Source: Acidobacterium sp. S8 (GTDB taxonomy: Bacteria > Acidobacteriota > Terriglobia > Terriglobales > Acidobacteriaceae). From it: a DNA stretch of 64,000 nucleotides. Each line of letters begins with the position of its first letter. Positions within the stretch are counted from its first letter, which is position 1. The notes beneath the pieces were generated by a model. The model searched no databases, was not told the DNA's origin, and was given only the letters and a program-made list of their open reading frames with translations. The translations under genes were made by a program, and so were the position numbers. The stretch is taken from contig NZ_LMUM01000015.1 in the NCBI RefSeq assembly GCF_009765985.1, forward strand, positions 1 through 64,000, read 5' to 3'. This document shows positions 21,201 through 43,541 of this stretch, piece after piece.

Positions 21201-24008
21201 GAAGTCTCGGAGCTGAAAGACAACATCAACACGATGATCAACAACCTCCGTCTCACCACGGAGCGCAACACCGAGCAGGATTGGCTGAAGACCAATCTTG
21301 CCCGCTTTACCAGTATGTTGCAGGGACAGCGCGATCTTACGGCGGTGGGACGCATGCTGCTCTCAGAGCTGGCTCCGCTTGTGAATGCGCAACAGGGACT
21401 GATCTATCAGATGGCTTCGGAAGAATCCAATGCGATGGTTCTGCTCTCGGCGTATGCAAGCACGCCCGATGGCCATCTGCAACACATACAAACAGGGGAC
21501 GGCCTGATCGGCCAGTGCGCGGTCGAGAAACGGCGCATGTTGATTACTGATCTGCCATCGCATACACAACCCATTCGCTCAGGTCTGTTTGAAGCTGTGC
21601 CCAGCAATGTGATTGTGCTTCCAGTGTTGTTTGAAGATCAGGTCAAAGCTGTTATCGAGCTGGCGACGCTCAGCACATTTACTGCCTCGCATCTCGCCTT
21701 TCTTGAACAGCTCACCTCCAGCATCGGCATCGTGCTGAACAGCATTGAAGTAACGATGCAGACGGAAGCCTTGTTGAAACAATCTCAGCAACTCGCTACC
21801 GAACTGCAATCGCAGAAAAAAGAGCTCCAACAGACAAACGAACAGCTTGCGCAAAAGGCGCAGCAGCTAGCCGAACAAAACGTAGAAGTCGAACGCAAGA
21901 ATGAACAGATTGAGCAGGCACGCCGGGCGCTCGAAGAGAAAGCAAAGGAACTGGCTCTCACCTCGAAGTACAAGTCAGAGTTCCTTGCCAATATGTCTCA
22001 CGAACTGCGCACTCCTCTTAACAGTATCCTGGTGCTGGGACAACAGCTCAGCGACAATCCGGATGGCAATCTTTCGCCGAAGCAGACCGAGTTTGCGCGT
22101 ACGATTCATGGAGCTGGGACCGACCTTCTGAACCTGATCAGCGACATTCTCGATCTCTCCAAAATTGAGTCGGGGACGGTTTCGATTGAAGCCGAGGAAG
22201 TTTTCTTTGCCAGCCTGCTCGATATGATTGCCAGGCCCTTCCGGCATGAGGCAGAGAACAGAAAACTTTCGTTCGATCTGCATACCGATCCGTATCTCAG
22301 CCGTAGCCTGGTGACGGATTCAAAGCGTCTGCAGCAGGTGCTAAAGAATCTGCTGTCGAACGCATTCAAGTTCACTGAGCAGGGTGGTGTCCGGCTGTCC
22401 GTATTCCGTGCCGAGAACGGCTGGAGTGAAGGACATCATATTCTAAGCAGCGCCGGTGCAGTTATAGCTTTCCAGGTCAACGACACAGGTATCGGCATTC
22501 CGCAGGAGAAACAGAAGATTATCTTCGAGGCATTCCAACAGGCAGATGCAGGTACGAGCCGCAAGTACGGCGGCACCGGATTAGGATTGGCCATCAGCCG
22601 TGAGCTTACGTCGCTCCTGGGCGGTGAAATTCAATTGAGGAGTATTTCGGGCAAGGGAAGCACATTCACCCTGTACCTGCCACAAGCGTATGTTGCCCCT
22701 GTTAGCGCAGCCGGCGCTTCTGCCACCGAGATACTTCATACCTCCTCGGTAAATGTGCTGCAGCCGCCGGCAGTCATGCAAATGGAGCGGCCCCTGGAGG
22801 AGATTGAAGATGATCGCAATCGGCTTGAGCCTGGAGACGCAGTATTGCTGATTGTGGAAGACGATCCGCATTATGCTCGCATCCTGCGGGATCTTGCGCG
22901 CGACAACGGTTTCAGGGTTCTAGTTGCTTTGCGCGGTGCGGACGCACTGACGCTGGCGCGGGAATTCCTGCCCACCGCTGTATCGCTCGACGTCTTCCTG
23001 CCCGACATGCTGGGCTGGACCGTGCTCAACCATCTCAAGCAGGAGCCCGGCATGCGGCATATTCCGGTGCAGATGCTTACGATCGACGGAGACCGCCATC
23101 ATGGGTTATCGCGCGGCGCATTCTCTTTCGTAAGCAAGCCGACCACTACTGAGGGGCTGACTGCGGCGTTGACGAGAATCAAGGAATTCTCTACTTCGCG
23201 GCGTAAGCGTCTGCTGGTAGTGGAGGACAATCCGGCAGAACAATTGAGCATTCGATCTCTGCTCGACTATGACGACATCGATGTGACCGTTGTATCGACA
23301 GGTCAGGATGCGCTGTCTGCGCTTTCCGAAGAGCGATTCGATTGCGTTGTGCTTGACCTTCGCCTGCCTGACATGACGGGTCTCGATCTTCTGGAACAAT
23401 TGCGGGACACACCCTCGCTGAACGAGGTTCCGGTGGTGGTATTTACCGGCAAGGAACTCTCGTCGGAAGAGGACGCCAAATTGCATAAGCTTGCGCGTAG
23501 CGTCGTGATCAAAGGTGTTGAGTCTCCGGAACGCCTGCTCGACGAAACCGCTCTGTTCCTGCATCGAATTGTGAGCGATCTGCCTCCGGAGAAGCAACGA
23601 TTGCTCGACCGTTTGCATCGATCTGATGATGCACTTCTAGAAAAGAAAGTTCTGGTCATCGATGACGATGTGCGCAATATTTTTGCCCTGAGCAGCGTAT
23701 TGGAAAGGCGGGGCATGGCCGTTCTCGCCGCCAGCACCGGTCGCGAGGCGATTGAGACTCTGGAGTCCACTCCCGATATCGCGATCGCGCTGATGGACAT
23801 TATGATGCCGGAGATGGATGGATACGAGACGATGCGGGTGATCCGCCAGAACCCTGCTTTACGTCGCCTGCCAATCATTGCGCTGACGGCGAAGGCGATG
23901 AAGGGTGACCGTGAAAAGTGCCTGGAGGCCGGGGCTTCAGAATATCTCGCGAAACCGGTGAATACTGATCAACTACTGGCTGTTTTGCGTATGTGGCTCC
24001 ACAGGTAG
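18240..24008 (+). CDS. Soluble poly-HAMP hybrid histidine kinase with GAF and three receiver domains
   Basis: 1922 aa without a transmembrane segment. Residues about 30-1010 are tandem HAMP domains: two divergent units, then nine 92-residue units (core [18 protein letters not shown], then [10 protein letters not shown]). A GAF domain (about 1013-1170) and a Gln/Glu-rich coiled coil (about 1175-1245) follow. HisKA has the phospho-acceptor His at about 1254 ([13 protein letters not shown]). HATPase shows N-box ([12 protein letters not shown]), DTGIGIP and [10 protein letters not shown]. Three REC domains have acceptor Asp at about 1584, 1706 and 1853. The layout resembles the group III (Nik1/Os-1) osmosensing kinases of fungi and their bacterial relatives. 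Signal input probably comes through HAMP-stack conformation and the GAF ligand. It heads an operon with two further signalling genes. GGGGAGTGG supports this start. Confidence 0.93.
18780..21263 (+). repeat. Nine tandem 276-bp HAMP-coding repeats
   Basis: Units begin at 18780, 19056, 19332, 19608, 19884, 20160, 20436, 20712 and 20988, exactly 276 bp apart, with no indels between them. Protein identity between the first eight is very high. The ninth ([20 protein letters not shown]) is more divergent. Alternate units differ consistently: the [13 protein letters not shown] and [13 protein letters not shown] versions tend to interleave, as do E-V-A-T-A and E-V-T-T-A-V-A-R-G, so duplication may have gone in pairs. 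Such an array is prone to unequal recombination and copy-number change. Confidence 0.92.
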
Positions 24009-27322: not shown

Positions 27323-28015
27323 CTAGCTTGCTTTTGCCCGGGAATAATCAAGAGGCAGATGTGCGAGAGCATGACCAAGAATCTGACGCTGCACATCGGG
27401 AATAGGCATAGGATCTATCACGGTGATGCTGCCTGCCAGCCTGCATAGATCCAGATACGATTCACGGCAGGTAATGAGGAAGTCAAGCGGGTATTCAGGC
27501 TTGCGAGCCCGCGCCTGGACAGGATCGGCGTCAAGAAAATATCCGACGTCCGGCTTCGGGACGAAGCTCAGAATGAACTTGGCGTACGCTCGGGAGATTG
27601 GATTACCGAGTTTCAGGTTCGCCAGCTCGTCATAGGCGTACCGATCGAAGACGACAAAGTCCGCACCTGAGCTGAGTGACTTTTTTACGACATGCCGCAA
27701 TGAAACGGCATCGACAAAGTAGAGGAAATATCTCACCAGCGTCATCGGTGCTGATTGTACGTTCTTATCTCTGCGGTTCACCGGAGCATCAGGTCTGCCG
27801 ACACCTTTTTCACCCTTGAATAAAGTATGGCCGGTGGTTTCGCGTACGCCTTTCAATCTCGCAACTTCATCCCAGAAGGGAATGACCCGAACCTTGAGCC
27901 CGGCATCTCTCAAGTACTCACAGAGCACCTCTATCTGAGTACTCTTGCCAGCGCCATCAATTCCGGAAAACGACACGAACCTGGCCTGCAATTTGCTTTT
28001 TTTCCTATTCGTCAT
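27323..28015 (-). CDS. Thymidylate-kinase-like P-loop kinase
   Basis: 230 aa. Walker A FSGIDGAGKSTQIEVLCEYL lies at about residues 14-33, the D-R-Y motif in FVVFDRYAYDELANL at about 122-136, and a lid-like Arg-rich stretch (A-R-A-R-K-P-E-Y-P) at about 170. The overall layout is thymidylate kinase, but the R-R-D-K-N-V-Q-S-A-P insert and the glycan context differ from housekeeping Tmk. Similar P-loop proteins occur in polysaccharide loci, where the substrate is unknown. AGGAG just before the ATG overlaps the stop of the upstream gene, so translation is coupled. It is the last gene of a four-gene minus-strand operon. Confidence 0.75.
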   Translation of the reverse strand: MTNRKKSKLQARFVSFSGIDGAGKSTQIEVLCEYLRDAGLKVRVIPFWDEVARLKGVRETTGHTLFKGEKGVGRPDAPVNRRDKNVQSAPMTLVRYFLYFVDAVSLRHVVKKSLSSGADFVVFDRYAYDELANLKLGNPISRAYAKFILSFVPKPDVGYFLDADPVQARARKPEYPLDFLITCRESYLDLCRLAGSITVIDPMPIPDVQRQILGHALAHLPLDYSRAKAS

Positions 28016-28022
28016 CTTTCTC

Positions 28023-28496
28023 CTAGTGAGGTTCGCTGGGACTTGCTTTTGAAAGTGCGACTACTGTTCCTACAGCGATACATGCACCGATAACGATTCC
28101 AGTCTTGATCAAAATGGACCGGGTCCGTTTCTGCTTCGCCGGAGCGATTGCTGCGCCAGCCGGACGCGAGGCTGCCACGCCTGTTGTCTTTTCATAAGGC
28201 GCTGCCGCCGTTCCAACAGGAGCAGGGTTGTTCTGCTGTTGCGCATCCGGGCTTTGGCCAGTCGGGCTGCTCTGTGTTGTAGCCGGACTGGTCGATTGCG
28301 ACTGGGGTGCGTCTATGCTTGATTTTGTCGCTCCGCTATCAGTAGATTGCAGTTTGACAGGAGCCGTGGATGGATCCGTTTGTTGAACAGATGACTGCAG
28401 CGGCAATGCGGCAGCCGTACGAGCAAGGGGCAGAGTCAAAAATAATACAAGGCAACCGGCAGTCTGCCGCCGTAGCCAATTACTAGCGTTCTTCAT
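28023..28496 (-). CDS. Small secreted or membrane-anchored Pro/Ser/Thr/Gln-rich protein
   Basis: 157 aa from the ATG at 28496, which has GAGGAAATC before it (an ATG at 28520 is in frame but unsupported). An N-terminal signal (W-L-R-R-Q-T-A-G-C-L-V-L-F-L-T-L-P-L-A) is followed by a low-complexity linker of about 80 residues rich in S, T, P, Q and A. A C-terminal basic patch (K-Q-K-R-T-R-S) leads into one TM helix (ILIKTGIVIGACIAVGTVVA). The topology suggests an envelope anchor or spacer, with no enzyme domain. It lies between the STAS and thymidylate-kinase-like genes. Confidence 0.65.
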   Translation of the reverse strand: MKNASNWLRRQTAGCLVLFLTLPLARTAAALPLQSSVQQTDPSTAPVKLQSTDSGATKSSIDAPQSQSTSPATTQSSPTGQSPDAQQQNNPAPVGTAAAPYEKTTGVAASRPAGAAIAPAKQKRTRSILIKTGIVIGACIAVGTVVALSKASPSEPH

Positions 28497-28555
28497 GATT
28501 TCCTCGAAATGCATCGTCACAAATTGGTATCAAAGTGACTGCATCAAACTGTCGT

Positions 28556-28951
28556 CTAGGCTGCACTTTCGGTCCCAAAGCCCGAAGGCTCAGCTGCAAT
28601 CGCGGGTGAAAATGTGCCGGCCGTAAGACGGCCAAAGCTGGTTACTGCTTCAGCCGGTGTATGAAAAACTTCAAAGAGCCGACTTACACCAGAAGTTGTC
28701 AGCATGGCTGCGACTTTAGAAGGTACCGCCGCGAGCTTGATGTCGCCATTGCGCTTAATCGCTTCTTCCAGACAGCAGATAAGCAGGTAGATGACCGTAT
28801 TGTCCATTTGGCGCATATGGCTGCAATCCAGAACAAGACGAGGACGCTCTACTTTCATAGCAGTCTTTATTCCATCTAAAAATGCGCGTGTTTGCTTCAA
28901 ACTCAGATCTTGTGGAAATTGTTTCAGCATTACCGCAGATATTTTTCTCAT
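28556..28951 (-). CDS. STAS-domain protein (anti-sigma-factor-antagonist-like)
   Basis: 131 aa. The central part fits a STAS fold: PRLVLDCSHMRQMDNTVIYLLICCLEEAIKRNGDIKLAAVPSK across about residues 36-80. The regulatory site that is D-S-S/T-G in SpoIIAA reads M-D-N-T, with Thr available for phosphorylation. No partner kinase or sigma factor is adjacent. It lies between the flippase-fusion gene and a secreted protein, so it may regulate the glycan machinery rather than a sigma factor (inference). AGGGGTAGGAA precedes the ATG. Confidence 0.78.
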   Translation of the reverse strand: MRKISAVMLKQFPQDLSLKQTRAFLDGIKTAMKVERPRLVLDCSHMRQMDNTVIYLLICCLEEAIKRNGDIKLAAVPSKVAAMLTTSGVSRLFEVFHTPAEAVTSFGRLTAGTFSPAIAAEPSGFGTESAA

Positions 28952-29022: not shown

Positions 29023-30993
29023 TTATCCGAAACTTTGCAATACGCGTGCAAGCTCCTTGCCCGGATTGCGGACTATATGTCGTAAGAGGTTTTTTCCATA
29101 CCGAAAGAGGGTCGCCGGGTTCGTTTTGTACCAGCAGCACTCGGTCATGCGCGGCGACATCCCGCACAGAAAACGGAGACTCTCCATCTGGTCGGGGGTC
29201 GCAAGCACGGCGGACACAAAGCGATGGTTTCCATCAAGAATCGTCAAAGGCTCATTTTCATTGAGTCCGATGAGGATGACCGCGCCCATATCGTTGCTTC
29301 GTTGGGTGAGGCTCTTGCTGATGCTTGCAATCTTGTCCAGGAATGGACCCTGCGATTCCTTTTGCATGGTCTGCAGCCGTTCGGCCACCTCGAGAATCGA
29401 GAAATTGCCTCTGGCTATCTTTCTCCACTGAGCTCTCGGAAAAACTTTGATTTGATGCAGACATGACTTTCGCACTTCTACTTCATACCACTCTGTTTCC
29501 TGTGGTATTTCATTCCACAGAGAGCGGTGGCGAAGGAAGAAAAGAGCGCGCCGTTTGGCATTCTCGCGGGCATCGTCCAGGTTTGGATTGATTACGATTT
29601 CGCGTAGAGTTTCTCTATAGTCGGCAAAGACCGGACTATGAAAATCCGTTCGGAGAAACTCTGAAATCACCTCATCTTCTGAGACGTGGCGCATTACTCT
29701 TACGGACTGGTAATTTTCGCGCGGCAAGTTATTTTTTGACCTCACAATTAAATCGATCAGGAACGGTATAGCAACAAGAACGAACAGAACGCTCATCAGT
29801 ATGAGCTGCACAAGAATGACCTGCTGCAGCGAGGAGTGGTACCGGCAAAGACCCAGAATAAGAACACCACTGAACGCCAGCTGTACCCAGCTTGTGTTTG
29901 CAATCTTGTATGACATTTCGTAGGTGATGATCACGACGCTGAGCGAATAGATCACAGTCGTGATGGCATATAAAGCCAACAGGTAGGGGAAGCCGAACTT
30001 CCCATCGAGCTCAAAGCCAGAACCAAAAAACACGGTCCAGACGACGGCCGGCGTGACACGCAGCGCCAAAGCCAATACGGAGCCAATGCCGAGAACTAGC
30101 AGCAGCGACGTGCTGATAACTTTAGTATTCTTTCGCTCTTCGTCGCTCGTACCTGCCACAATCGGAAACATCGTGTTTACGACCGCGGAGGAAAAAGCAA
30201 AGATCACCCGGCCCACCATGGCAATGGCCGCATACAGGCCTGCCTCTCGGGACTCAAAGAAATGTTTTACCAGAACGATGTCGCAGTTGTTGATCAGCAC
30301 CTGTCCCGCGAAAAATACTATGCCTTGCAGAACTTCGCGAACTGCCCGCATAAAGTGAACAGGATTTGGAGCGGGAGCAGCAAGCTTCGACGCTGCGGCA
30401 AAGTAGGCAACGGCCACGGCGGCGGCGTTGGCCGCGATGACTCCTCGCACGCCAAAGCCTAAAAGGATAAGAGTAAGAGAGCCGCCAAACCGGACGACCC
30501 CTTCTAGTACGAGATTGGTGGCAAGGCGACGAAAACCGTAAGCGCCCTGAATGTAACCCCTACGGCTGCCTAAAGGAACATAGAAGGCAGCTCCGATGGC
30601 GAGGAGCGCGACGAGATCTGATCCCGGGAGATGCAGGTAACCTGCAATCCCTTTTTGAAAAACGAACAAGAGCAGAGCAACGACAATGCCACAGCCCCAA
30701 GCGGCTCTATGAAGATCTCGATAGGCGGCACTCTTGCCTTTCTGCGTTTCCTGCTGGGCCACCACCTTCGCGGTGACAATCTGAAATGAGAGCGTGATCG
30801 CGGAAATCAGAGTGAGCAGGGTATAAACGACGGTGGCATGCCCGAAACCAGTCGGTCCCAGGAACCTTGCTACCGCCATGTTATAAGCGAGATTGATTGC
30901 AGTGGTTAACCCCGAACCAGAAAGCAATACGATAGTTCCTGACAAAATACGGGCTTGCAGTGTTTTTGCTTTCTGGATCTGGCCATTTACCAA
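29023..30993 (-). CDS. Flippase fused to a C-terminal ParB/sulfiredoxin-like domain
   Basis: 656 aa with a TTG start (GGAG about 10 nt before). Residues about 15-430 are a MOP-type polysaccharide flippase (V-A-R-F-L-G-P-T-G-F-G-H-A-T-V-V-Y, about 12-14 TM segments). Residues about 440-656 are soluble and of another origin. They carry W-Y-E-V-E-V-R-K-S-C-L-H-Q-I-K-V-F-P-R-A-Q-W, then LTILDGNHRFVSAVLA (about 594-609), which resembles the L-D-G-x-H-R core of ParB/Srx-fold proteins, then FLCGMSPRMTECCWYKTNPATL. I know similar C-terminal segments as stand-alone proteins from memory only. The fusion would place this domain at the cytoplasmic face of the transporter. First gene of the minus-strand operon. 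Confidence 0.8.
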   Translation of the reverse strand: MVNGQIQKAKTLQARILSGTIVLLSGSGLTTAINLAYNMAVARFLGPTGFGHATVVYTLLTLISAITLSFQIVTAKVVAQQETQKGKSAAYRDLHRAAWGCGIVVALLLFVFQKGIAGYLHLPGSDLVALLAIGAAFYVPLGSRRGYIQGAYGFRRLATNLVLEGVVRFGGSLTLILLGFGVRGVIAANAAAVAVAYFAAASKLAAPAPNPVHFMRAVREVLQGIVFFAGQVLINNCDIVLVKHFFESREAGLYAAIAMVGRVIFAFSSAVVNTMFPIVAGTSDEERKNTKVISTSLLLVLGIGSVLALALRVTPAVVWTVFFGSGFELDGKFGFPYLLALYAITTVIYSLSVVIITYEMSYKIANTSWVQLAFSGVLILGLCRYHSSLQQVILVQLILMSVLFVLVAIPFLIDLIVRSKNNLPRENYQSVRVMRHVSEDEVISEFLRTDFHSPVFADYRETLREIVINPNLDDARENAKRRALFFLRHRSLWNEIPQETEWYEVEVRKSCLHQIKVFPRAQWRKIARGNFSILEVAERLQTMQKESQGPFLDKIASISKSLTQRSNDMGAVILIGLNENEPLTILDGNHRFVSAVLATPDQMESLRFLCGMSPRMTECCWYKTNPATLFRYGKNLLRHIVRNPGKELARVLQSFG

Positions 30994-31205: not shown

Positions 31206-32174
31206 ATGTTCGATCGCTTAAGCGCTGCATTACTTTGCTTTTTCCTGCTGCCCCATGGATGCTCAAATCCTGGATCGCGCCAGAACCTCAGGCTGAAGTA
31301 CCGTGCTACAGGCACGTCTCCCGAAATACTGGCACTCTATGAACCCTGGTTTGGACATCCCAAGCATATCTCTGTTGGCTATTCATCGCATGACCCCAAG
31401 GTGATCGAAAAGCAAATCCACAAGGCCAAGGACATGGGAATCTCGGCCTTCATTGTGGATTGGTATGGTGATCGCGAGCCCTTCATTGATGAAAGTTACA
31501 AGTTGATGCAAACTATTGCCGCCAAAAAGAAGCTCCAGGTTGCAATGTTGTATGACGAAACCGACGAAGAAGAAGGCGCTACGGATGAGGCTATCGCAGA
31601 TTTCAGAACCTTTCGCGATACTTATCTGGCCCAAAATGCGCCTGGACGCGAAGCATATCTCACTTATCAAGGCCGTCCAGTGATCTTTATTTTCCCGAAG
31701 GGGAATCATACGGACTGGAACAAAGTGCGCTCTGAAGTCAATAAGTGGAATCCTGCACCCATTCTGATTACAGAAAACTTACCCGACAAGTACATGAATG
31801 CCTTCGATGGATTTTATGCCTGGGTACAGCCTGGAAGTAAGGGCTGGTCTGCAGACGGGAGTAATTGGGGGGAGGACTACCTGAATAACTTCTACGATGT
31901 CATGCGGTCAAAGCACCCAGACAAGATTGTAGTCGGGGGAGCCTGGTCAAGCTTCGATGACAGCAAAGCATCATGGGGGTTAAATCGTCATATATCTGCG
32001 CGCTGCGGACAAACCTTTACTGATACCTTTAACTATTGGAAGAAGTATTTCTCTGCAGATGACCCAATTCCATTCATTCTTGTAGAGACTTGGAATGACT
32101 ACGAAGAAGGGACTGCAGTTGAACCGGGAATTCCAACCTGCAAAGATCAGCCGCAAGCTATCCCTGCACACTAA
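31206..32174 (+). CDS. GH99/GH71-like glycoside hydrolase, secreted
   Basis: 322 aa. The N-terminus has a hydrophobic signal ending in L-P-H-G-C, possibly a lipobox. The body matches GH99-like (endo-alpha-mannosidase/mannanase) and GH71 proteins: ILALYEPWFGHPKHISVGY, G-I-S-A-F-I-V-D-W-Y-G (about residues 79-89), VAMLYDE-T-D, and the C-terminal ILVETWNDYEEGTAVEPG (about 294-311), where the W-N-D-Y-E-E-G-T signature carries acidic candidates for catalysis. Predicted TIM barrel acting outside the cytoplasm on alpha-mannan-like glycans. The exact linkage is unknown. It is transcribed divergently from the flippase-fusion operon. Confidence 0.75.
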   Translation: MFDRLSAALLCFFLLPHGCSNPGSRQNLRLKYRATGTSPEILALYEPWFGHPKHISVGYSSHDPKVIEKQIHKAKDMGISAFIVDWYGDREPFIDESYKLMQTIAAKKKLQVAMLYDETDEEEGATDEAIADFRTFRDTYLAQNAPGREAYLTYQGRPVIFIFPKGNHTDWNKVRSEVNKWNPAPILITENLPDKYMNAFDGFYAWVQPGSKGWSADGSNWGEDYLNNFYDVMRSKHPDKIVVGGAWSSFDDSKASWGLNRHISARCGQTFTDTFNYWKKYFSADDPIPFILVETWNDYEEGTAVEPGIPTCKDQPQAIPAH

Positions 32175-32259: not shown

Positions 32260-33240
32260 TTATGCTACCCGTGCAATCTTGTCTGAAAACTCTTCCTCGA
32301 AGCTAAGTTCACCCTCAACTGCCAACGCATCAGAGGTATAGATTTTGTTGATGATCGAGAGGGGCCGACGCCGTACTTCGTCATGAACGCGTCCGAGGTA
32401 CTCGCCCAGTACTCCTAAGCACAGGAACATGAAGCTTCCGAGCAGAAAGATTGCAGAAGTCACGCCAAAGCCGACAGCATCGATCTGGTTCTTCGAGAAA
32501 ATCGCCAGAAGACCAAGCACGAAAACCGTCAGGCAAGAGATGGCAGACATCAGGAAGCAGAGCCGAAGCGGTTTATAGCTGAAGCTCGTAATAGCGTCCA
32601 TTGCATACTTGATCCGGCTGATGAACGAAAGCTTGCCCTCGCCAGCAGCGCGATCGTGCCGGTCGTAGTAGACCACTCCAGTTTTATATCCAACCCACGC
32701 CCGGATGCCGGGCAGATACCGGTTGATTTCGCCCATGGAATTCATCGAATCAACCGCTTGACGATCCATGAGGCCGAAAATGCCCGCATTCAGTGGAATT
32801 GGGTAATCGGAGAGGGCTCCAAGAACGCGGTAAAACATCGGGAAGAGCAGGGCAAGAACCTTGCGAGATTCCTGACGGCTCCGGCGCACCGCGGTCACAA
32901 CCTGAGCTCCGTCTTTCCACGCCTGTATCAATTGAGGTACGACTTCCGGTGGATCCTGAAAATCACCGTCCATGAGAACGACTGCGTCGCCGCTTGCTAC
33001 CTTAAGCCCCGCGGAGATTGCTCCCATATGACCCCAGTTGCGCGAAAGATCTGCGACCACCACATGCGGATCGTTGGCCTGAAGTTCCTGCAAGAGAGAA
33101 AGTGAGGAATCGCGGGAGCCATCATTGACATAAACAACCTCCCACTCTTCGTGAGTTGTGTCTAGTGCATTTGCAATCGCCTGGTGAAACGGGAAAATAT
33201 TTTCTTCTTCGTTGAAGATAGGAACAACTACAGAAATCAT
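32260..33240 (-). CDS. Membrane glycosyltransferase family 2 (DPM1/GtrB/ArnC-like)
   Basis: 326 aa from the ATG at 33240, chosen because AAGGAG lies 8 nt upstream and M-I-S-V-V-V-P-I-F-N-E-E-E-N is the GT2 opening (the frame is open to 33324). Motifs: VVYVNDGSRDSSL, VVLMDGDFQDPPEV (DxD region, about residues 94-107), and the R-x-x-R-Q-E-S-R segment. Two C-terminal TM helices follow (about 230-250 and 262-285), ending in G-E-Y-L-G-R-V-H-D-E-V-R-R-R-P, typical of polyisoprenyl-phosphate hexose synthases. The product is likely an undecaprenyl-phosphate sugar used on the periplasmic side. Confidence 0.9.
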   Translation of the reverse strand: MISVVVPIFNEEENIFPFHQAIANALDTTHEEWEVVYVNDGSRDSSLSLLQELQANDPHVVVADLSRNWGHMGAISAGLKVASGDAVVLMDGDFQDPPEVVPQLIQAWKDGAQVVTAVRRSRQESRKVLALLFPMFYRVLGALSDYPIPLNAGIFGLMDRQAVDSMNSMGEINRYLPGIRAWVGYKTGVVYYDRHDRAAGEGKLSFISRIKYAMDAITSFSYKPLRLCFLMSAISCLTVFVLGLLAIFSKNQIDAVGFGVTSAIFLLGSFMFLCLGVLGEYLGRVHDEVRRRPLSIINKIYTSDALAVEGELSFEEEFSDKIARVA

Positions 33241-33363
33241 TTTTTGTACTCCTTGGGTCTGTTCAGTAATCAACAACGCTTGCTTTGTACTTATTTTTCT
33301 TGCCGGCTGTGCTTGGGGAATCACAGCCTTGTACGTTCTCTTACTAAAATTGGATTTCGAACG

Positions 33364-34733: not shown

Positions 34734-35857
34734 TGCATACTCCCTGCGCTGTAGGTAGTGGTGAAAGCCCGTTCGCTGCTCACTTTTCTTGCGAGGTCTT
34801 CTGGTACCGTGATGCGGAAGGGAACCGGAGTTTGTGGCTGGAGTGCGCGGTCGATATATTGATCCGCAACCCAGACGAGCTGCCCTGACTTGTCGTAGAA
34901 GGTACCCAGGACATGGGCAATGTTCACTACCTGTCCACTCTGGTTCACCAACTGGCCTGTAAGCGACGCGCCCGGCGCCGGGTTGAACTGCTGGTCCTGG
35001 ATTGCAATCACCGGATCTGCCGAAGCGGAAACCAGAGACGCTGAAGGATCCATACGCACGCTGCTTACATCCGACAGCGACACGTTGTGAAAGGTGATGA
35101 GGAAGGGCGTGACCTGCTTTGGAAGAAGGAGATGGGCGATCTTGTCGAAACTGCCTTCGCTCGCGATGACAGAGCCGTTCTTAGCCAGGAGTGTCGCCTT
35201 CACCGAGACGTGAGCAGGCACGATATCTTCGTTGAGAAGCTCGCCCATGATCACTACGCCATCGGCGCGCTCGACGGGGTGCATATCGACGATGCGTACA
35301 TGAGGTGCCTCAACATCCTGGGCGCCCCAATCATCGCCGGCGCCGCGGTAGATTACATCCCAACGCAGGTAGTTGACTGGGATGACCTGCGGGGGAACGC
35401 GTGTTTCCTTTACAATCGGCCACTGAACTTGCCAGCGGTCGCCGTTCTTAACAACGTGCAGGTCGCGGGTCTCGGGAAAAGTACCCACTACCGTTGACCA
35501 GTGCAGCCGGAGTTGCACTTCAGCTTCGTTCGCGCTGGAATGCAGCGGGCGCAGATCGAAGTTCTCCAGTGTTGCATAGGTGCGAAGGCTGAGACGGTTT
35601 CCAGTCAGGTCTTGTTGAAATTCGGGCTGCGTAAACTCAGCCTTATTCGCAAGGCTGGAATATGCTTTTCCCCAGTCCCGGCGGCCAATATCCTGTGCAA
35701 GGTTGGTTACTGCCGCTTCGGGTGTTGACGAAGATTGAAGCAGATTTCCACCACCCGCCAGCGCCAATGCGGCTGCATTCGGCCAAAGGGTTCCGATTAC
35801 GATCAGCGCGACAGTCGCACCGGCGATCAATATCGCTAGAAGTTTTCCTTTATTCAC
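34730..35857 (-). CDS. Envelope protein with N-terminal anchor and beta-sandwich (FxLYD-like) region
   Basis: 375 aa from the GTG at 35857, supported by GGGAGG 8 nt upstream and by the GTGA overlap with the upstream stop. A single TM helix near the N-terminus (LLAILIAGATVALIVIGTLW) is followed by a globular NTF2-like part (TPEAAVTNLAQDIGRRDWGK, A-Y-S-S-L). Two FxLYD-like beta domains follow (V-V-I-M-G-E-L-L-N-E-D and GQLVNQSGQVVNIAHVLGTF, Y-D-K-S-G-Q), a pattern known from bacterial envelope proteins of unknown role. Function is not recognisable. The tight overlaps suggest it works with the membrane protein encoded before it. Confidence 0.7.
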   Translation of the reverse strand: MNKGKLLAILIAGATVALIVIGTLWPNAAALALAGGGNLLQSSSTPEAAVTNLAQDIGRRDWGKAYSSLANKAEFTQPEFQQDLTGNRLSLRTYATLENFDLRPLHSSANEAEVQLRLHWSTVVGTFPETRDLHVVKNGDRWQVQWPIVKETRVPPQVIPVNYLRWDVIYRGAGDDWGAQDVEAPHVRIVDMHPVERADGVVIMGELLNEDIVPAHVSVKATLLAKNGSVIASEGSFDKIAHLLLPKQVTPFLITFHNVSLSDVSSVRMDPSASLVSASADPVIAIQDQQFNPAPGASLTGQLVNQSGQVVNIAHVLGTFYDKSGQLVWVADQYIDRALQPQTPVPFRITVPEDLARKVSSERAFTTTYSAGSMQ

Positions 35858-37605
35858 GATACCAGCCTCCCGGATGCAATGTCGTCGTGGGTGATGGCAT
35901 CTTGGTCCGTCGGATTTTCCTGCCACCGTTTATCTGGAATCAGCACGATCAACAGCGCCAGAAGGCTGCTGCCGAAAGGCAGAATTCCCCACATCAGACC
36001 CTGCCAGTGAGGCGGCATCTGCGCCGCGTTCAGCGGAGTTGCCGGCGGTACGCCATCCTTCATCCACACGGCGATCGTATTATCTTCGAGGTCGTCCACG
36101 TGACGCCATCCGGCGAAGGAAAGCAGTGGCTCGTAATAGGGATCCTTGAGGAACACCCACTTCAGCCCGTACTTATCCGCGTGACCTAAGATCGCCGTCA
36201 GCGCATCGGTTCCTTGTTTGCCGAAGTACTTTGAGCTGGTCAGTGCCCCTGCTCCATGCTCGGTCAGCTCTGGAAGCATGCGGCCTGAATTCCACTCACC
36301 ATCGACGCTGCCTGCATCCGTCAATACGGCCAGGCGTGCGATTTTATTGCCGAAGCCGAGCGTGACGTACCGATAGTTGTCGTGCCCGTCGCGGTTCAGC
36401 CATGCGGCCACAGAGTCAACTTGGAAGTTCGACGCGTCAGCCGGGTGATACACGACCCAGGCAACTGACAGTCCACAAGTCAATGTTGCCGCCACACTCA
36501 GTCCAATGACCGCCCGCATGCGGAATCGATCAATCAGTTCAGAAGCCAGCAACCCGACGAAGGGGAGGGCAAGCAGGGTCGCCCAGTAGCTGAATCGCTC
36601 CATGGTCAACACTTCATACGCGCGACCGAGCACAAGATGCCCAACCGGCGTAGTACCGCCGAGACCAACCAGCATCGCAACCCAGAAGCCGAGCAGCAGG
36701 GGCCGCAGCCGCACTGAAATGGCGCCGCGCCAGATGATGAACGGTATGGCGAGTACCAGGGCTCCGTAAGGAATGATGAAGTAGTTCAGCCCCCACTCCG
36801 GACTTAAAATATAGTTAGCGCGGCTGGGATGCGGAATCGGAGTCTGCGTGACCGGATAGTGAATCAGCGCGATCCAGAAAGGCAGCAGCACAAGCGCAAT
36901 TCCGGCACCTACTACGACTGCGATCGAAACAGTGCGAGCGATGAAAGAAGGAGTTGAGGTGGGTTCACCCTCATTACGGTCAATCAACACCAGCGCCAGA
37001 ACCGGCAGGGCAAAAAAGAATGAGCCGAAGAGAAGCGTCGCGTGGTGGGCCGCCGCAGCAGCGACGAAGAGTACGCTGCCCTTCAGGAATGACCGCCAGC
37101 TGCCGTGTCGCACCCAGTCGAAGAGATAGGGAAGAGCATTAAGATAAATCGGAGCGGCCGAGGTCGTTCCAAGCTGGCCTGCGGAATATACCAGAAAGCT
37201 TTCGGAACCGAGAAAAACGCTTGCTAATGCAGCATAGGATGCCGCGCGCGGGCTGACCCACAGAAGCGAGAAGCGGTATACACCAACAACGAGTAGCAGA
37301 ATGGCAGCAAACTGGACCGCCATGTAGGCCATATCCAGGCCCGTAATATGCGAGATCAGAGCCACCCACTGCTGAGGAAGCGGAGGATATGTGGCCTGTG
37401 AAAATCCCGCGTACCATTTTGTGTTCCAGGGATCAAACCAGTGATGAACGTAGTGCGATGCGAAGAAAATATGAAAATTTGTGTCATATGACTTCAAAGG
37501 AAGTTTCATGAGCAGCAAAGGCAGATGTACCGCACATGCAGCCAACATAATGAAAGTCATTGACAATGGTGGGGTAACGGGTGTGGCAGACAAGGTTTTA
37601 CGCAA
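35854..37605 (-). CDS. Large integral membrane protein (PTPS-related / GT-C-like)
   Basis: 583 aa with about 11-12 TM segments and a C-terminal soluble loop (about residues 380-530). The N-terminus L-P-L-K-S-Y-D-T-N-F-H-I-F-F-A-S-H-Y has an acidic residue and His in the first loop, as in GT-C enzymes. Y-S-A-G-Q-L-G-T-T-S-A-A-P-I-Y and the general layout resemble the 6-pyruvoyl-tetrahydropterin-synthase-related membrane family (PF10131), which despite the name is thought to be glycosyltransferase-like. A mannosyl/arabinosyl-type transfer from a polyprenyl donor is possible but unproven. First gene of a minus-strand operon with GTGA and ATGA overlaps to the next genes. Confidence 0.72.
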   Translation of the reverse strand: MRKTLSATPVTPPLSMTFIMLAACAVHLPLLLMKLPLKSYDTNFHIFFASHYVHHWFDPWNTKWYAGFSQATYPPLPQQWVALISHITGLDMAYMAVQFAAILLLVVGVYRFSLLWVSPRAASYAALASVFLGSESFLVYSAGQLGTTSAAPIYLNALPYLFDWVRHGSWRSFLKGSVLFVAAAAAHHATLLFGSFFFALPVLALVLIDRNEGEPTSTPSFIARTVSIAVVVGAGIALVLLPFWIALIHYPVTQTPIPHPSRANYILSPEWGLNYFIIPYGALVLAIPFIIWRGAISVRLRPLLLGFWVAMLVGLGGTTPVGHLVLGRAYEVLTMERFSYWATLLALPFVGLLASELIDRFRMRAVIGLSVAATLTCGLSVAWVVYHPADASNFQVDSVAAWLNRDGHDNYRYVTLGFGNKIARLAVLTDAGSVDGEWNSGRMLPELTEHGAGALTSSKYFGKQGTDALTAILGHADKYGLKWVFLKDPYYEPLLSFAGWRHVDDLEDNTIAVWMKDGVPPATPLNAAQMPPHWQGLMWGILPFGSSLLALLIVLIPDKRWQENPTDQDAITHDDIASGRLVS

Positions 37606-37825: not shown

Positions 37826-40800
37826 TTGATTGCAAGGTTTAGCTATTTAAAGGGCGTACTTACGTTCTCCCTTATTGTTGCACTGTCTTGGCCACTCGGA
37901 GCGCAAACTTACCAGGTAGGACCCGACTCAAAGGCAACGCCTAAGAGCTCGGCCGGTCAGGCGCAGCAGCAGCCAGATGGCCAGTCTCTGGGCTGGGGAT
38001 CGAACATTCAAAATGCGCGCCTCGCACGGGCTGCCCAGCTGGCTCTCCAGCGCGGCGACCACGCGCAGGCTGTGGAATATGCTCAGCGCGCCGCACAGGC
38101 AGCTCCAAGCGATCCTCAGCTATGGTTCCTGCTGGGTTACGCGGCTCGGCTCGATAGCAAGACGCAGTTGGCAATCGACGCTTACAATCACGGCCTTCAC
38201 TTGAATCCATCGTCCCTGGAAGGCCTTTCCGGCCTGGCTCAGACCTACAACGTTATGGGCCGCACAGAGGATGCTGAGCGGCTGCTGAAACAGGTGCTTG
38301 CTGCCGATCCGCGGCGCAAGGATGACGCGCTGCTCCTTGGCGACATCTACATGAGGTCCAGCGATTACACTTCCGCCCTCGATTGGCTGGGCAAAGCCGA
38401 GCGAATGGAGCCTTCGGCGCGGTCTGAGTTGTTGATGGCGCTTTCCTATCAGCATCTCAAGCAAATGGACATGGCAAATCGCTACCTGGAACTGGCCAAG
38501 CGCCACGCGCCCGATAATCCGGAAGTACAGCGTTCGCTCGCAGGATATTACCGAGAGACAGGCAATTATTCCGCTGCAATTGCATCGTTGAAGGCGATCA
38601 AAAATCCCAAGCCGGACGTTACGGCAGAACTCGCGTATACCTATCAGCTCGATGGCAAACTGGACCAGGCTGCTGCAATTTATGCGCAGGCCGCAAATGC
38701 GATGCCGCGTGATCTAGGCCTCCAGCTTTCTGCCGCGCAAGCAGCTGTTGCAGCAGGGTCGATCGATCATGCTGATTCTTTCCTGAAACGCGCGGAAGTA
38801 ATCGATGCTGATTACTATCGTTTGCACGCGATTCGCGGACAGATTGCCCAAATCCAGGAACGCGATCCTGACGCCGTTCGCGAATACAGCGTTGCCATTG
38901 CTCACCTACCGGCTTCGCCGGTCGAAGGGCAGCTCTACGGTATTCAGCTGCACATGGATTTAATGCAGCTTTACAAGAATCTCAACGAGACCAATGAGGC
39001 GCAGCAAAACCTCGAAATCGCCAAAACTGAAATCGGAAAAATAGACGATCGCGGACCGGGAAGAGGACAGTTCCTCCGTCTTCGCGCTCTCATCAAAATG
39101 AACGATGGTCAGCTCGATAGCGCATTGAGTGATATGAATGAAGCTCTCGCGCTCAATTCCGGCGATCTCAACAATCTGCAGCTCGATGGCGATTTGCTGA
39201 TGAAGATGGGCCGCACGGAGCAGGCAATCTCGGCTTACAAACAGATTCTTACAGCAGACAAGAACAACCGCTTCGCTCTTACTTCACTCGGCTATGCTTC
39301 ACGCGCCGCGGGTCGTGACGAGGATGCTATAAAATATTTCCAGCAACTCGCCAGAGCCTATCCTACGCTATACGTCCCCTACCTTGCTCTTGGAGATATG
39401 TACACCGCACATCGGGAGTTTGCGAAAGCTGAAGCCCTCTATAAAAAGAGCTTTGCACTGGCTCCCAAAAACGTAGCCATCGTCACCGGCGGGATGAATG
39501 CCGCAATCGAAGCGCATAATACCGATCTCGCTGGAGTGTGGTTAGGCCGCTCGACTGATGACATGCAGCACGATCCGCACTTCATGCGTGAAAAGGAAAG
39601 ATATCTCCGGTTCAAGGGCAACTACGAAGAATCTGCAAAGATCGGCAGGGAAGCCATTCAAGCATTGCCTAAAGACCGCGATGTTGTGGTCTATCTCGGG
39701 TACGATCTCCTGAATCTGAATCAGTACGATGAGTTGCTGACCCTTACAGATAAATACAGGAATGTCTTTCCACAGGAACCCGATATTCCTCTCCTCGCCG
39801 GCTACGTGCACAAGCACCAGGGCGAGTCCGAATTGGCGAAGCAAGACTTCACAGAAGCACTGAATCGCGATCCCAATGTCGTGACCGCGTATGTCAACCG
39901 TGGCTATATGCTGAACGATTTGCATCAGCCTGCGGATGCAGCTTCAGACTTCGAAGCGGCAATCAAGCGCGAGCCGAAAAACGGCGAAGCGCATCTTGGA
40001 CTCGCATATGCGAACCTCGATATGCATAAATCGCAAGCTGCGGTGAAGGAATCCGAGCTAGCCGAGGCGGAGATGGGCGATTCGCTGCCTCTCCATCTGA
40101 TTCGCGCAACGGCATATGCCCGCGAAGGTATGCTATCCAAGGCTGCGGACGAATATCAGGTGGCCTTGAAATTCTCGCCGCACGATGGTTCGCTTTATCT
40201 GGCCCTGGCGGGAGTGCACTACTCGCAGCGCGAATATCATCAGTCCATCGACGATCTTCAGACGGCGCAGAGGCTCTTGCCTGACGATCCTAAGATCTAC
40301 GCTCTGCTTGCGCGTTCCTATGCGGAGTTGCCGGACAAAGACCAGACGCTCCACTATGTCGAGCTCGCCGAGCAGCATGCGCAGCCTGACGCGAAAGATC
40401 CCGACTCGCGGCCGAGTGCCATCTACATCTCTACCGGCCAGGCTCTAAGCACCGTTGGAGATCAGCATGGAGCGATGGATCGCTTCAGCAAGGCACTCAC
40501 TGCAGCAGGCAGCAACCGCGTCGGCGTGCGTCTTGCGATTGCGCAGTTAATGGCTATGCAGGGCAATGCCGACGATGCGAAACGACAGATCGCGCTCGCA
40601 CAGATGGAAGCTCAGACGGGAGACACGTCAGCCCCCTCGGCTGATCAATATATTGCAGCGGCGGATGTATTCCGCAGTCTGCACGAATACGACTTGTCTC
40701 AAAACTATCTTGATCGAGCCCAGGCCGCAGGCGCTCCCGATGCCTCCGTAAGAATCGGCATGGCAAATAACTATCTCGCAGTCGGCGACACCGCCAGGGC

Positions 40801-42052
40801 TAAAGGTGAGCTCGCTGCAATTCCTGATAACGATGAGAGCGCAGAGAGTTACCAGTACCTGATGGCAAAGGCAAACATCTTTCGCCAGGAACATCAGGGA
40901 GCGCAGGCGTTGACTGCTTTCGCCGAGGCAACCAACGCCGCGGGCGAGGATCAATCTGCTGAGCAGAACCTGCTCTCCGCGGGTGCAGACGAGGGATTGC
41001 GTATCAATCCGACCCTCAGCGTGCTCACCAACTTCTCCATCGATCCAATCTACGAAGATACGACAGTGTATGTTCTGGACTCCAAGCTCGATGCCCCGAC
41101 GCCAATCGCAAGCAATGAAAGCAGCCTGCTTCCACCGCCGCGCTCGTCGCTGCAAACACAGTGGACAGGCGCCTATCACCTTCATCTCGGCGAAATGGCT
41201 CCCGCTGCGGGTGGCTTCGTTCAGATTCGACATGCAAACGGTCAGATCTCGGTACCGAGCACGAATACCATCGTGAATCGAAGCACGACCGACTATACGT
41301 TCAACTTCGGCGTAAGTCCCACGGTTCACTTCGGATCGAATGTGCTGACCTTCAATCCCGGCATTCAGGGAACAATTCGCAGGGACTCGGAATCACCTGT
41401 CGAGATGGATCAGAATCTTCTGCGCGAGTTTGTATATGCAAGCACCAGCTCATTCTTCAATGCAGTCTCTGTCAGCGGATATTTCATTCATGAATCAGGC
41501 CCCTTTACGGAAAGCGATCAGCACTCGCAGGCGTTGACAGGTGCGGTTGATTTTCGCGTGGGTTCGCCCTGGGGTAAAACGGCTCTTGTGACCGGCTGGG
41601 GTGCGAATCATCAGGAATACTCGCCGCAGAATTATAAGAACTACTACACCTCGTCTTACATCGGTCTTGAACGCAGGTTCGGAGATCGGCTGAATGTGCG
41701 GGCTGTGGCGGAAGATTTGCGCGCATGGCGCGTCTTCGGAGATAACTCCGCTATTGCGCAGAACCTCCGCCCAAGCGGTACCGTTGATTTCACTCCATCC
41801 CGCAGTTGGGACGTGCAGGGCAGCTTCGCTTACTCGAGCACGCGAGGGTTCCACGTATACGACGCAATGCAGAGCGGGTTTTCAGTCTCGTATGCAAGAC
41901 CGTTCCATCGCAAATTTAACGCTGAAGATGGGGAAGTATCCCTTCAATATCCCATTCGTTTCTCGGCAGGCATGCAAGACGAGAGCTTCTTCAATTTTCC
42001 CGGAGCACATAGCCAGCAATTCCGGCCATACGTAAGCATTACGTTGTTTTAA
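37826..42052 (+). CDS. Giant TPR protein with C-terminal outer-membrane beta-barrel (BcsC/PgaA-like)
   Basis: 1408 aa with a TTG start (AGGTG 5 nt before). Signal peptide: LTFSLIVALSWPLGAQ. Residues about 60-1030 are some two dozen TPR-type helical repeats (for example Q-L-W-F-L-L-G-Y-A-A-R-L, A-I-S-A-Y-K-Q-I-L). From about residue 1055 the sequence becomes beta-rich with alternating aromatic/polar strands (W-T-G-A-Y-H-L-H-L-G, Y-T-F-N-F-G-V-S-P-T-V-H-F-G, Y-V-S-I-T-L-F) and ends in Phe, the outer-membrane insertion signal. This architecture is that of BcsC and PgaA/PelB-type exporters, which pass a polymer through a periplasmic TPR scaffold and a 16-strand barrel. A synthase partner is not obvious nearby. 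The next gene (22 nt later) is a glycosyltransferase. Confidence 0.85.
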   Translation: MIARFSYLKGVLTFSLIVALSWPLGAQTYQVGPDSKATPKSSAGQAQQQPDGQSLGWGSNIQNARLARAAQLALQRGDHAQAVEYAQRAAQAAPSDPQLWFLLGYAARLDSKTQLAIDAYNHGLHLNPSSLEGLSGLAQTYNVMGRTEDAERLLKQVLAADPRRKDDALLLGDIYMRSSDYTSALDWLGKAERMEPSARSELLMALSYQHLKQMDMANRYLELAKRHAPDNPEVQRSLAGYYRETGNYSAAIASLKAIKNPKPDVTAELAYTYQLDGKLDQAAAIYAQAANAMPRDLGLQLSAAQAAVAAGSIDHADSFLKRAEVIDADYYRLHAIRGQIAQIQERDPDAVREYSVAIAHLPASPVEGQLYGIQLHMDLMQLYKNLNETNEAQQNLEIAKTEIGKIDDRGPGRGQFLRLRALIKMNDGQLDSALSDMNEALALNSGDLNNLQLDGDLLMKMGRTEQAISAYKQILTADKNNRFALTSLGYASRAAGRDEDAIKYFQQLARAYPTLYVPYLALGDMYTAHREFAKAEALYKKSFALAPKNVAIVTGGMNAAIEAHNTDLAGVWLGRSTDDMQHDPHFMREKERYLRFKGNYEESAKIGREAIQALPKDRDVVVYLGYDLLNLNQYDELLTLTDKYRNVFPQEPDIPLLAGYVHKHQGESELAKQDFTEALNRDPNVVTAYVNRGYMLNDLHQPADAASDFEAAIKREPKNGEAHLGLAYANLDMHKSQAAVKESELAEAEMGDSLPLHLIRATAYAREGMLSKAADEYQVALKFSPHDGSLYLALAGVHYSQREYHQSIDDLQTAQRLLPDDPKIYALLARSYAELPDKDQTLHYVELAEQHAQPDAKDPDSRPSAIYISTGQALSTVGDQHGAMDRFSKALTAAGSNRVGVRLAIAQLMAMQGNADDAKRQIALAQMEAQTGDTSAPSADQYIAAADVFRSLHEYDLSQNYLDRAQAAGAPDASVRIGMANNYLAVGDTARAKGELAAIPDNDESAESYQYLMAKANIFRQEHQGAQALTAFAEATNAAGEDQSAEQNLLSAGADEGLRINPTLSVLTNFSIDPIYEDTTVYVLDSKLDAPTPIASNESSLLPPPRSSLQTQWTGAYHLHLGEMAPAAGGFVQIRHANGQISVPSTNTIVNRSTTDYTFNFGVSPTVHFGSNVLTFNPGIQGTIRRDSESPVEMDQNLLREFVYASTSSFFNAVSVSGYFIHESGPFTESDQHSQALTGAVDFRVGSPWGKTALVTGWGANHQEYSPQNYKNYYTSSYIGLERRFGDRLNVRAVAEDLRAWRVFGDNSAIAQNLRPSGTVDFTPSRSWDVQGSFAYSSTRGFHVYDAMQSGFSVSYARPFHRKFNAEDGEVSLQYPIRFSAGMQDESFFNFPGAHSQQFRPYVSITLF

Positions 42053-42074: not shown

Positions 42075-43541
42075 ATGAAAATCTGTTTAGTTGCGACATT
42101 CCCCCCCAGTGGACGCCAGTTAAATGAATACGCGCTACATATCGCGCGGGAATTGCAAAACAATCCCGATGTGAGCCTGACCATTCTTGCCGATGAATTG
42201 ACGGATTATGAATTCGCCACGGATGGCAACGGCCAATCGATCAATGCTAAGGAACAACCTGAGTTGCCCGGGTTCAATGTCATCCGTTGCTGGAAGTTCA
42301 ACAGCCTGGCTACACCCATGCGGCTGTTAAACACCATTCGCGAGTTAAAGCCAGATATTGTGTGGTTCAATCTCGTTTTTTCCAGCTTCGCGACGCCCGA
42401 TAATCCGCTGGCTGCGTTTGCGGGTCTTTCAGCGCCCGCACTTACACGTTCTTCCGGCTTCTACACGCACGTCACTTTGCATCACATTATCGAGCATATC
42501 GATTTTGCGGCAGCCGGTGTACGCAGAGAGAAACTCTATCGCATGGGAACGAACGTGGCTACCAAAGCCCTGTTGAAGGCGAATTCCGTTTCTGTCCTGC
42601 TGTCCGGGTATCGCCGCACGCTCATGGAAAAGTATGCAGCACAAAACGTCCTGCTGGGAACTCATGGAACGCTGACATCCGTTCCGACACCTCCGGACTT
42701 CTCCAAGCGTGGCAATCCTGAAGTTCGCATCCTGGCAATCGGACATTGGGGAACTTATAAGCGTCTGGAAACGCTGATGGAGGCCTTTCCTGCCGTTCTG
42801 GAAGCGGTTCCGAATGCGAAACTCATCATCGCCGGCGCCAATCATCACACTAAGGCTGGCTATTGGGAATCGATACGCGAAGCACAGCCCGCACATCTGC
42901 CCATTGAATTCCGCGGCTATGTTCCCGAAGACGATATTCCAGAGCTGATGCAGTCTACATCGCTTCTCGTTCTGCCATACGATTCTGCAACCGGCTCCAG
43001 CGGACCGGCCCATCAGGCCTGCGAATATGGAATACCAGTCGTCTCTGCCGATCTCCACGACTTCCGTGAGATGGCGGAGGACGAACACATGTCGATCCGC
43101 TTCTATAAGAAAGGTGACTCCGAAGATCTGGCCAGCCAGATGATTTCCATCTTGAATTCGGCGGAAACTCTGTGGCAAATGTCGGAACAGAACTACGCTG
43201 CTGGAATACAGATGACGATGGCCAGTGTTGTCAGAAATTATCTTCGCTGGTTTGAACTTAATAAATACAAGCGATCCATTGGACGTCACGGCTCGCTTCG
43301 GCGTCGTGGACGCCATTGGTTTCGTTCCCGTTCTACAAAGTGGCAAGACTCTTTGCATGAAGGACGCAACTCCCAAGACAAAGATGGCGCAGGAGCGCAC
43401 TTTGAATTGGAAGTTGCCGACACAATGACACCAGCGCTGGAATCGGCACTCCTCCATGCCCGGCTTGGAAATCAAGCTGATGTAGAACGTCCTGCTGGCG
43501 ATGGCTACAAGACAAATCCGGTACTCGAAACAGATTTTTAA
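42075..43541 (+). CDS. Glycosyltransferase family 4 with unusual C-terminal tail
   Basis: 488 aa. The GT-B core ends at about residue 400. The acceptor half starts MKICLVATFPPSGRQLNEYALHIARELQ. The donor half has VRILAIGHWGTYKRLETLMEAFP, LIIAGANHHTKAGYWESI, and LLVLPYDSATGSSGPAHQACEYGIPVVSAD, a variant of the EX7E region in which the first Glu is Asp/Ser. The last 85 or so residues are basic then polar and low in complexity (R-R-R-G-R-H-W-F-R-S-R-S) and not part of the GT fold. A 348-aa frame on the opposite strand is a shadow. The gene follows the beta-barrel exporter closely and is probably cotranscribed. Confidence 0.85.
   Translation: MKICLVATFPPSGRQLNEYALHIARELQNNPDVSLTILADELTDYEFATDGNGQSINAKEQPELPGFNVIRCWKFNSLATPMRLLNTIRELKPDIVWFNLVFSSFATPDNPLAAFAGLSAPALTRSSGFYTHVTLHHIIEHIDFAAAGVRREKLYRMGTNVATKALLKANSVSVLLSGYRRTLMEKYAAQNVLLGTHGTLTSVPTPPDFSKRGNPEVRILAIGHWGTYKRLETLMEAFPAVLEAVPNAKLIIAGANHHTKAGYWESIREAQPAHLPIEFRGYVPEDDIPELMQSTSLLVLPYDSATGSSGPAHQACEYGIPVVSADLHDFREMAEDEHMSIRFYKKGDSEDLASQMISILNSAETLWQMSEQNYAAGIQMTMASVVRNYLRWFELNKYKRSIGRHGSLRRRGRHWFRSRSTKWQDSLHEGRNSQDKDGAGAHFELEVADTMTPALESALLHARLGNQADVERPAGDGYKTNPVLETDF

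Follow-up and report, generated by a model that had tools for sequence, protein, structure and literature searches.

Proteins of the ParB/sulfiredoxin (ParB/Srx) fold are known to act in DNA partition, in redox repair and in the phosphorylation of serine, and in ParB and Noc the Glu of the GERR motif is generally known as the catalytic residue. In a 2025 survey of the ParB-CTPase fold, 11 of 28 purified ParB-like proteins bound an NTP, the choice of nucleotide turned out not to be predictable from sequence or AlphaFold3, and the fusions described were to DNA-, RNA- and CBS-type domains, the main text mentioning neither flippases nor polysaccharides (PMC12704722). Sulfiredoxins are proteins of about 90-120 residues, and the free serine kinases SerK and SbnI are small-molecule kinases of the same fold. 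Among flippases, MviN is of the MurJ type. The mycobacterial protein carries a C-terminal pseudokinase domain that does not bind ATP and recruits the inhibitor FhaA (PMC12599244), an arrangement which makes a flippase with a regulatory soluble domain a real possibility. STAS domains, in turn, may serve for docking in transporters, and in the syp locus of Vibrio fischeri, a polysaccharide locus, the single-domain STAS protein SypA is controlled through the phosphorylation of Ser56 (PMC8256260).

Here we describe a flippase gene of the window, which is the whole 64,000-nucleotide stretch of Acidobacterium sp. S8 DNA that was analysed. A 656-residue frame runs from 30993 to 29023 on the minus strand, with a TTG start and GGAG 10 bases upstream, and joins a flippase to a soluble domain, very probably of the ParB/Srx fold. 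The sequence-only reading that drew attention to this ORF gave no strand, and counted about 215 soluble residues after the flippase; there are about 227, with LDGNHR and the C-terminal block FLCGMSPRMTECCWY in the same frame, as had been stated. The architecture is real and conserved, and apparently undescribed: no paper on this gene set came up in literature searches, in agreement with the earlier remark that no such system was known.

The flippase part spans residues about 1-421 (29731..30993, minus strand) and has 12 predicted membrane helices of the MOP/Wzx type. Residues 17-280 match the Pfam family Polysacc_synt (PF01943) with 29.1 bits against a cut-off of 28.2, and a full-length model built on 58 sequences (pLDDT 82, pTM 0.63) places 12 membrane helices up to residue 421 and the soluble domain after them. 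In Foldseek, the best PDB matches of this model are MATE/MOP transporters (E about 2e-7), with the lipid III flippase WzxE reaching E 4e-7 and a TM to target of up to 0.74. Since these are the best solved matches, the label 'MOP flippase' is right, and the description of this part as a full MOP flippase is borne out by helices, family match and structural relatives. The 12-helix MOP fold is common to WzxE and to this protein; however, the WzxE chains in the PDB, of 409-418 residues, consist of the membrane part only, whereas the flippase of the window has an added soluble domain. The polysaccharide-type neighbouring genes suggest a lipid-linked sugar as its cargo. Given the MOP topology, an even helix count and the positively charged residues past the final helix (R418, K420 and R425) would place the C-terminus, and with it the soluble domain, on the cytosolic side of the membrane.

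The soluble domain comprises 227 residues (430-656; 29026..29706, minus strand), and the last ~227 residues of the frame hold no hydrophobic segment. When 40 relatives, each sharing 37-64% identity with the domain of the window, were aligned, 17 positions proved invariant, including E, F, L, R, P, W, R, W, T, G-N-H-R, S, M, C and W. The motif D587-G-N-H-R591 (29221..29235, minus strand) is the equivalent of Box II, or P motif (GxxR), of ParB and of GGCHR in sulfiredoxin. Further on lies a family-specific block, F608 to Y622 (29128..29172, minus strand), whose residues S613, M616, C620 and W621 are invariant in the 40 sequences, so that what had been called conserved-looking is indeed conserved, as is G-N-H-R; R481, W502, R520, W523 and T584 (full-length numbering, offset 429) are further invariant residues beyond Box II. 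Asn589, invariant as well, occupies the position of both the catalytic Glu of ParB GERR and the catalytic Cys of sulfiredoxin GGCHR, each of them absent from all 40 sequences. With Asn in place of these two residues, neither activity is to be assumed, and a hydrolytic on-off cycle of the ParB type would be unlikely.

Even though the motif recalls ParB, none of the 40 members matches PF02195 (ParB_N) at E<=1, and the domain has no usable match in Pfam, NCBIfam or PHROGs. As Pfam misses it, surveys based on PF02195 would not see it. Searches of PDB sequences with the domain and with its profile returned nothing, or designed repeat proteins and other chance matches. Two further hits were not taken as evidence: an NCBIfam match to Erm32 (E 6e-4), shown by one of the 40 members, and a weak phage ParB-like match (E 0.04) of a distant relative.

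The assignment to the ParB/Srx fold comes instead from predicted structure and from profiles. A model of the domain alone, made with AF2 from 73 related sequences (pLDDT 90.2, pTM 0.87), had no Foldseek match at E<=0.001; the best one was Noc, with an E value of only 1.1. In VIA-align, all of rows 1-22 belong to the ParB/Srx superfamily (Z 5.1 to 3.1), namely sulfiredoxins, Noc, ParB, KorB, SerK, SbnI, PadC, Osa and Atu1540, the last two of which we take to be members. The top match is the sulfiredoxin 6ky4 (Z 5.1, 87 of 89 residues, 2.9 A), and in a viral structure library many of the best matches carry the name ParB or ParB/sulfiredoxin. In addition, 19 genuine ParB-N domains (PF02195) from the window's genome and related genomes were aligned and compared with the domain in hhalign, which aligned 48 columns (probability 42%, E 0.00026, score 30.6) and put the [DE]GNHRxxAA of the domain on the AGERRxRAA of ParB. 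Against this score of 30.6, the highest value among 200 column-shuffled ParB alignments was 22.4; reversing the alignment gave 17.4, and the three unrelated families taken from the locus gave 11.5-15.2. The same ParB match was obtained with a small alignment headed by the distant stand-alone relatives; this alignment shares members with the first one, hence it is not independent.

A convergent likeness, in which an unrelated alpha/beta fold would have acquired a GNHR loop by chance, could be argued from the best Foldseek E value of 1.1 and the best Z of 5.1, both under the level usually trusted alone, and from the lack of a Pfam match. Nevertheless, the 22 top rows of VIA-align uniformly show one superfamily, as do many of the top viral matches, and the profile match falls independently on the functional motif, with shuffle controls, which makes convergence very improbable. 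We thus consider the ParB/Srx call of the sequence-only reading very likely correct, from the predicted structure and the controlled profile comparison taken together; with single scores being modest, membership holds at the level of the fold, on a predicted model. The fold assignment together with a functional link to the flippase is likewise highly probable.

With ParB (PF02195), the domain would have in common the predicted core fold, the GxxR motif (here G588-N-H-R591), the A-A after it and the profile match. Contrary to ParB, it has no Pfam match, no catalytic Glu and no HTH or dimerisation domain, and it has extra N-terminal helices, the C-terminal SxxMxxxCW block and a membrane flippase attached. 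Sulfiredoxin, its best structural match, shares the H-R of GGCHR, but differs in its length (about 230 residues in the present domain), in its Cys and in its link to peroxiredoxin, which has no counterpart in the context of the window. The match to SerK and SbnI is weak (Z 3.2-3.7), and the context here is glycan export rather than serine metabolism.

The link between domain and flippase is general in the family. The domain is present in 91 of 200 Acidobacteriaceae genomes and in 48 of 79 genera. Terriglobus albidus and Acidipila rosea, two cultured relatives, have the fused gene. Among the 61 loci read in detail, 40 are fused in frame, 19 are split and two are stand-alone, one locus (L082) being counted as split although its frame has 676 codons. 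In the split loci, the flippase gene lies directly upstream on the same strand and starts about 1.2 kb before the domain, L034:5874-6623 being the separate domain gene of one such locus; hence, the flippase is in frame or directly upstream in 59 of the 61 loci. Conservation on this scale, in genomes and in linkage, excludes chance. In the tree, the split forms are grouped to one side of a single branch with support 81/90, a placement which fits fusion first or fission first. Two stand-alone paralogues (L031:8561-9583:+ and L032:7587-8564:+) are encoded beside a gene that reads as aroA-like; each of the two genomes has a fused copy as well. Both proteins have, also by reading, a single N-terminal membrane helix, and since they begin with this helix, the domain would remain at the membrane even there.

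Downstream of the flippase-domain gene, and on the same minus strand, are encoded a single-domain STAS protein of 131 aa (28556-28951; PF13466/PF01740 over cut-off), a small protein of 165 aa without Pfam match (28023-28520), and a thymidylate-kinase-like P-loop protein of 230 aa (27323-28015; PF02223 over cut-off), the successive gaps being 71, 35 and 7 bases. Promoter and terminator scans gave no information on operon limits. All 19 split loci have STAS, flippase, domain, small protein and kinase in this order on one strand, and in 20 of the 40 fused loci the three partners lie within 3.5 kb on the same strand; in further fused loci they are inverted and 6-9 kb away. The kinase gene is within the flanks read in 31 of the 40 fused loci, and the small protein is linked in all 19 split and in 29 fused ones; in some fused loci, the STAS or the kinase gene was not found within the flanks read. 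The fusion and the gene set, whose conservation in relatives the sequence-only reading had left to be checked, are therefore kept, and that the link has survived several rearrangements is a good argument that these genes function together. When the flippase, the STAS protein and the kinase-like protein were each searched against the genome at E<=0.001, only this locus matched.

The STAS protein had been called a switch. The STAS domain is there, but the phosphorylatable serine of partner-switching STAS proteins is missing: its position in the DSSG loop is A in 20 of 32 homologues and S or T in only four, and the position beside it is A in 16 and S or T in five, the loop being mostly D-A-A-G. 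A phospho-switched STAS was thus rejected, as the canonical Ser of SpoIIAA, RsbV and SypA is absent from most homologues, and the protein is probably not a phospho-switch. Like SypA, it is a single-domain STAS protein encoded in a polysaccharide locus; contrary to SypA, it has no equivalent of Ser56, and the genes of the cassette showed none for a SypE-like partner. By analogy with STAS domains in transporters, it could be a docking protein.

The neighbour described earlier as a P-loop kinase does keep its P-loop: GxDGxGKxT and D124-R-Y are retained in 43-45 of 45 homologues. It is, however, not the housekeeping dTMP kinase, an identification that was rejected on its score of 44.9 bits against the TIGR00041 cut-off of 83.25 and on the presence of a true dTMP kinase (171.7 bits) on contig C29 of the same genome, of which it is a paralogue. 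The small protein has a hydrophobic segment at each end, a Pro/Gln/Ser-rich middle, and a strongly conserved TGVAASRPAGAAIAPAKQKRxRSILIK stretch before the hydrophobic C-terminus.

The wider locus fits exopolysaccharide synthesis and export, given the glycosyltransferases, the TPR outer-membrane-type protein, the 583-residue membrane protein and the GH99-like protein it encodes. The GH99/GH71-like secreted protein (31206..32174, plus strand), divergently oriented, is just under the Pfam cut-off and conserved in one fused clade. It is followed by a GT2 glycosyltransferase with C-terminal membrane helices (32260..33324, minus strand; PF00535 over cut-off) of the polyprenyl-phosphate sugar transferase type, which scores 246 bits with the NCBIfam model PgfS, under the cut-off of 500. 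The 583-aa multi-pass membrane protein (cluster c4; 35854..37605, minus strand) has no Pfam match, has homologues in 34 of the 61 loci and is, by reading only, possibly GT-C-like. A 1408-aa protein (37826..42052, plus strand) matches TPR families, has homologues in 46 of the 61 loci, and combines a C-terminal outer-membrane-type region with a layout that reads as BcsC/PelB-like. A group-1 glycosyltransferase (42075..43541, plus strand; PF13692/PF00534 over cut-off) has homologues in 25 loci. On the other side of the cassette, at 18240-24008 on the plus strand, the window encodes a histidine kinase of 1922 residues that contains a long tandem series of HAMP-like repeats, nearly identical to one another; genes for response regulators and kinases come after it.

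Our preferred reading is that a divergent ParB/Srx-fold domain would sit on the cytosolic side of the Wzx-type flippase, within a locus for exopolysaccharide export in Acidobacteriaceae, and would bind, through the invariant GNHR motif, an NTP or some other phosphorylated ligand. Through this binding, the domain might gate the flippase, or else bring the STAS protein and the kinase-like protein into contact with it, and the transfer of lipid-linked sugar across the membrane would thereby depend on nucleotide or precursor supply. Such a ligand-binding regulatory or scaffold module is put forward tentatively, with a probability somewhat short of even. The invariance of G-N-H-R in sequences down to 37% identical argues for a bound ligand, and no nucleotide is named because its choice in this fold cannot be predicted from sequence or AlphaFold3 (PMC12704722). 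Nucleotide binding and a control of flipping by the domain are what we infer from these features. The more specific idea, that a nucleotide-dependent switch or kinase of this fold works on or with the lipid-linked-sugar flippase together with a STAS protein devoid of phospho-serine and a thymidylate-kinase-like protein, as a putative and undescribed control of envelope glycan, is offered with more reserve still.

The invariant C/W block, being family-specific, would fit an enzyme as well as a switch, which speaks against a regulatory role. The main rival would be a phosphotransferase like SerK or SbnI, or another ligand-modifying enzyme, acting on the lipid-linked sugar or on a soluble precursor before flipping, with the kinase-like protein as the second phosphotransferase of the route. 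Both single-substrate kinases are indeed among the structural matches, invariance extends well past Box II to many polar and aromatic residues, two different kinase-type folds occur together in all split loci, and the kinase-like neighbour keeps its P-loop and DRY residues; yet the match to SerK and SbnI is weak, and a soluble kinase would not need fusion to a flippase, so that we regard an enzyme as rather unlikely. An adaptor that has the ParB/Srx shape only, binds no ligand and tethers glycosyltransferases, or else the STAS protein, to the flippase would explain why the catalytic positions of ParB and Srx are both Asn and why the STAS protein has no phospho-serine, and would have a precedent in the ATP-non-binding domain of MviN. 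The full invariance of G-N-H-R, even at 37% identity, counts against a non-binding adaptor, which we consider improbable. In MviN as in the protein of the window, the flippase ends in a soluble C-terminal domain whose fold is of a nucleotide-binding kind, but MviN has a protein-kinase fold, serves peptidoglycan rather than exopolysaccharide, and is without a STAS or thymidylate-kinase-like partner.

If one lineage of bacteria has tied the ParB/Srx fold to a glycan flippase, the range of this fold would widen to include envelope assembly, and a defined gene set would be at hand for asking whether the export of exopolysaccharide is coupled to nucleotide supply in bacteria. This polymer is thought to be important if Acidobacteria are to survive in soil (PMC5259719); of its synthesis, hardly anything is known.

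Few members of the domain family lie outside Acidobacteriaceae. Across 298 genomes of the order, all of the matches listed were in this family (97 genomes), and among 396 genomes of the phylum, a relative turned up in just one other lineage (G368, E 1e-13). When about 85,000 species genomes were scanned in a pattern-led way, 160 stretches proved to encode a relative, and of the 80 listed nearly all were labelled Acidobacteria. Plasmid and phage searches returned only distant relatives from Streptomycetaceae; these and the one from G368 are stand-alone, about 35% identical to each other, and have DGHIR or EGHLR instead of DGNHR. The domain is thus part of a thin, wider family, whose flippase-linked form is a speciality of Acidobacteriaceae. 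The annotated neighbours of one Streptomycetaceae relative are not glycan genes. Two such distant stand-alone relatives (L177:1296-1880:- and L178:10004-10594:+), from another Acidobacteriota family and from Streptomycetaceae megaplasmids, are unannotated or labelled 'hypothetical' and belong to an unnamed family without a Pfam model. A copy 50% identical over the domain lies on a contig binned as Rhodanobacteraceae (L153); the binning is probably wrong and the contig acidobacterial, and the copy was not treated as a transfer. Finally, a partial copy of the domain, covering profile positions 7-108 only, was found in a 207-codon frame (G082:C8:49458-49799:-).
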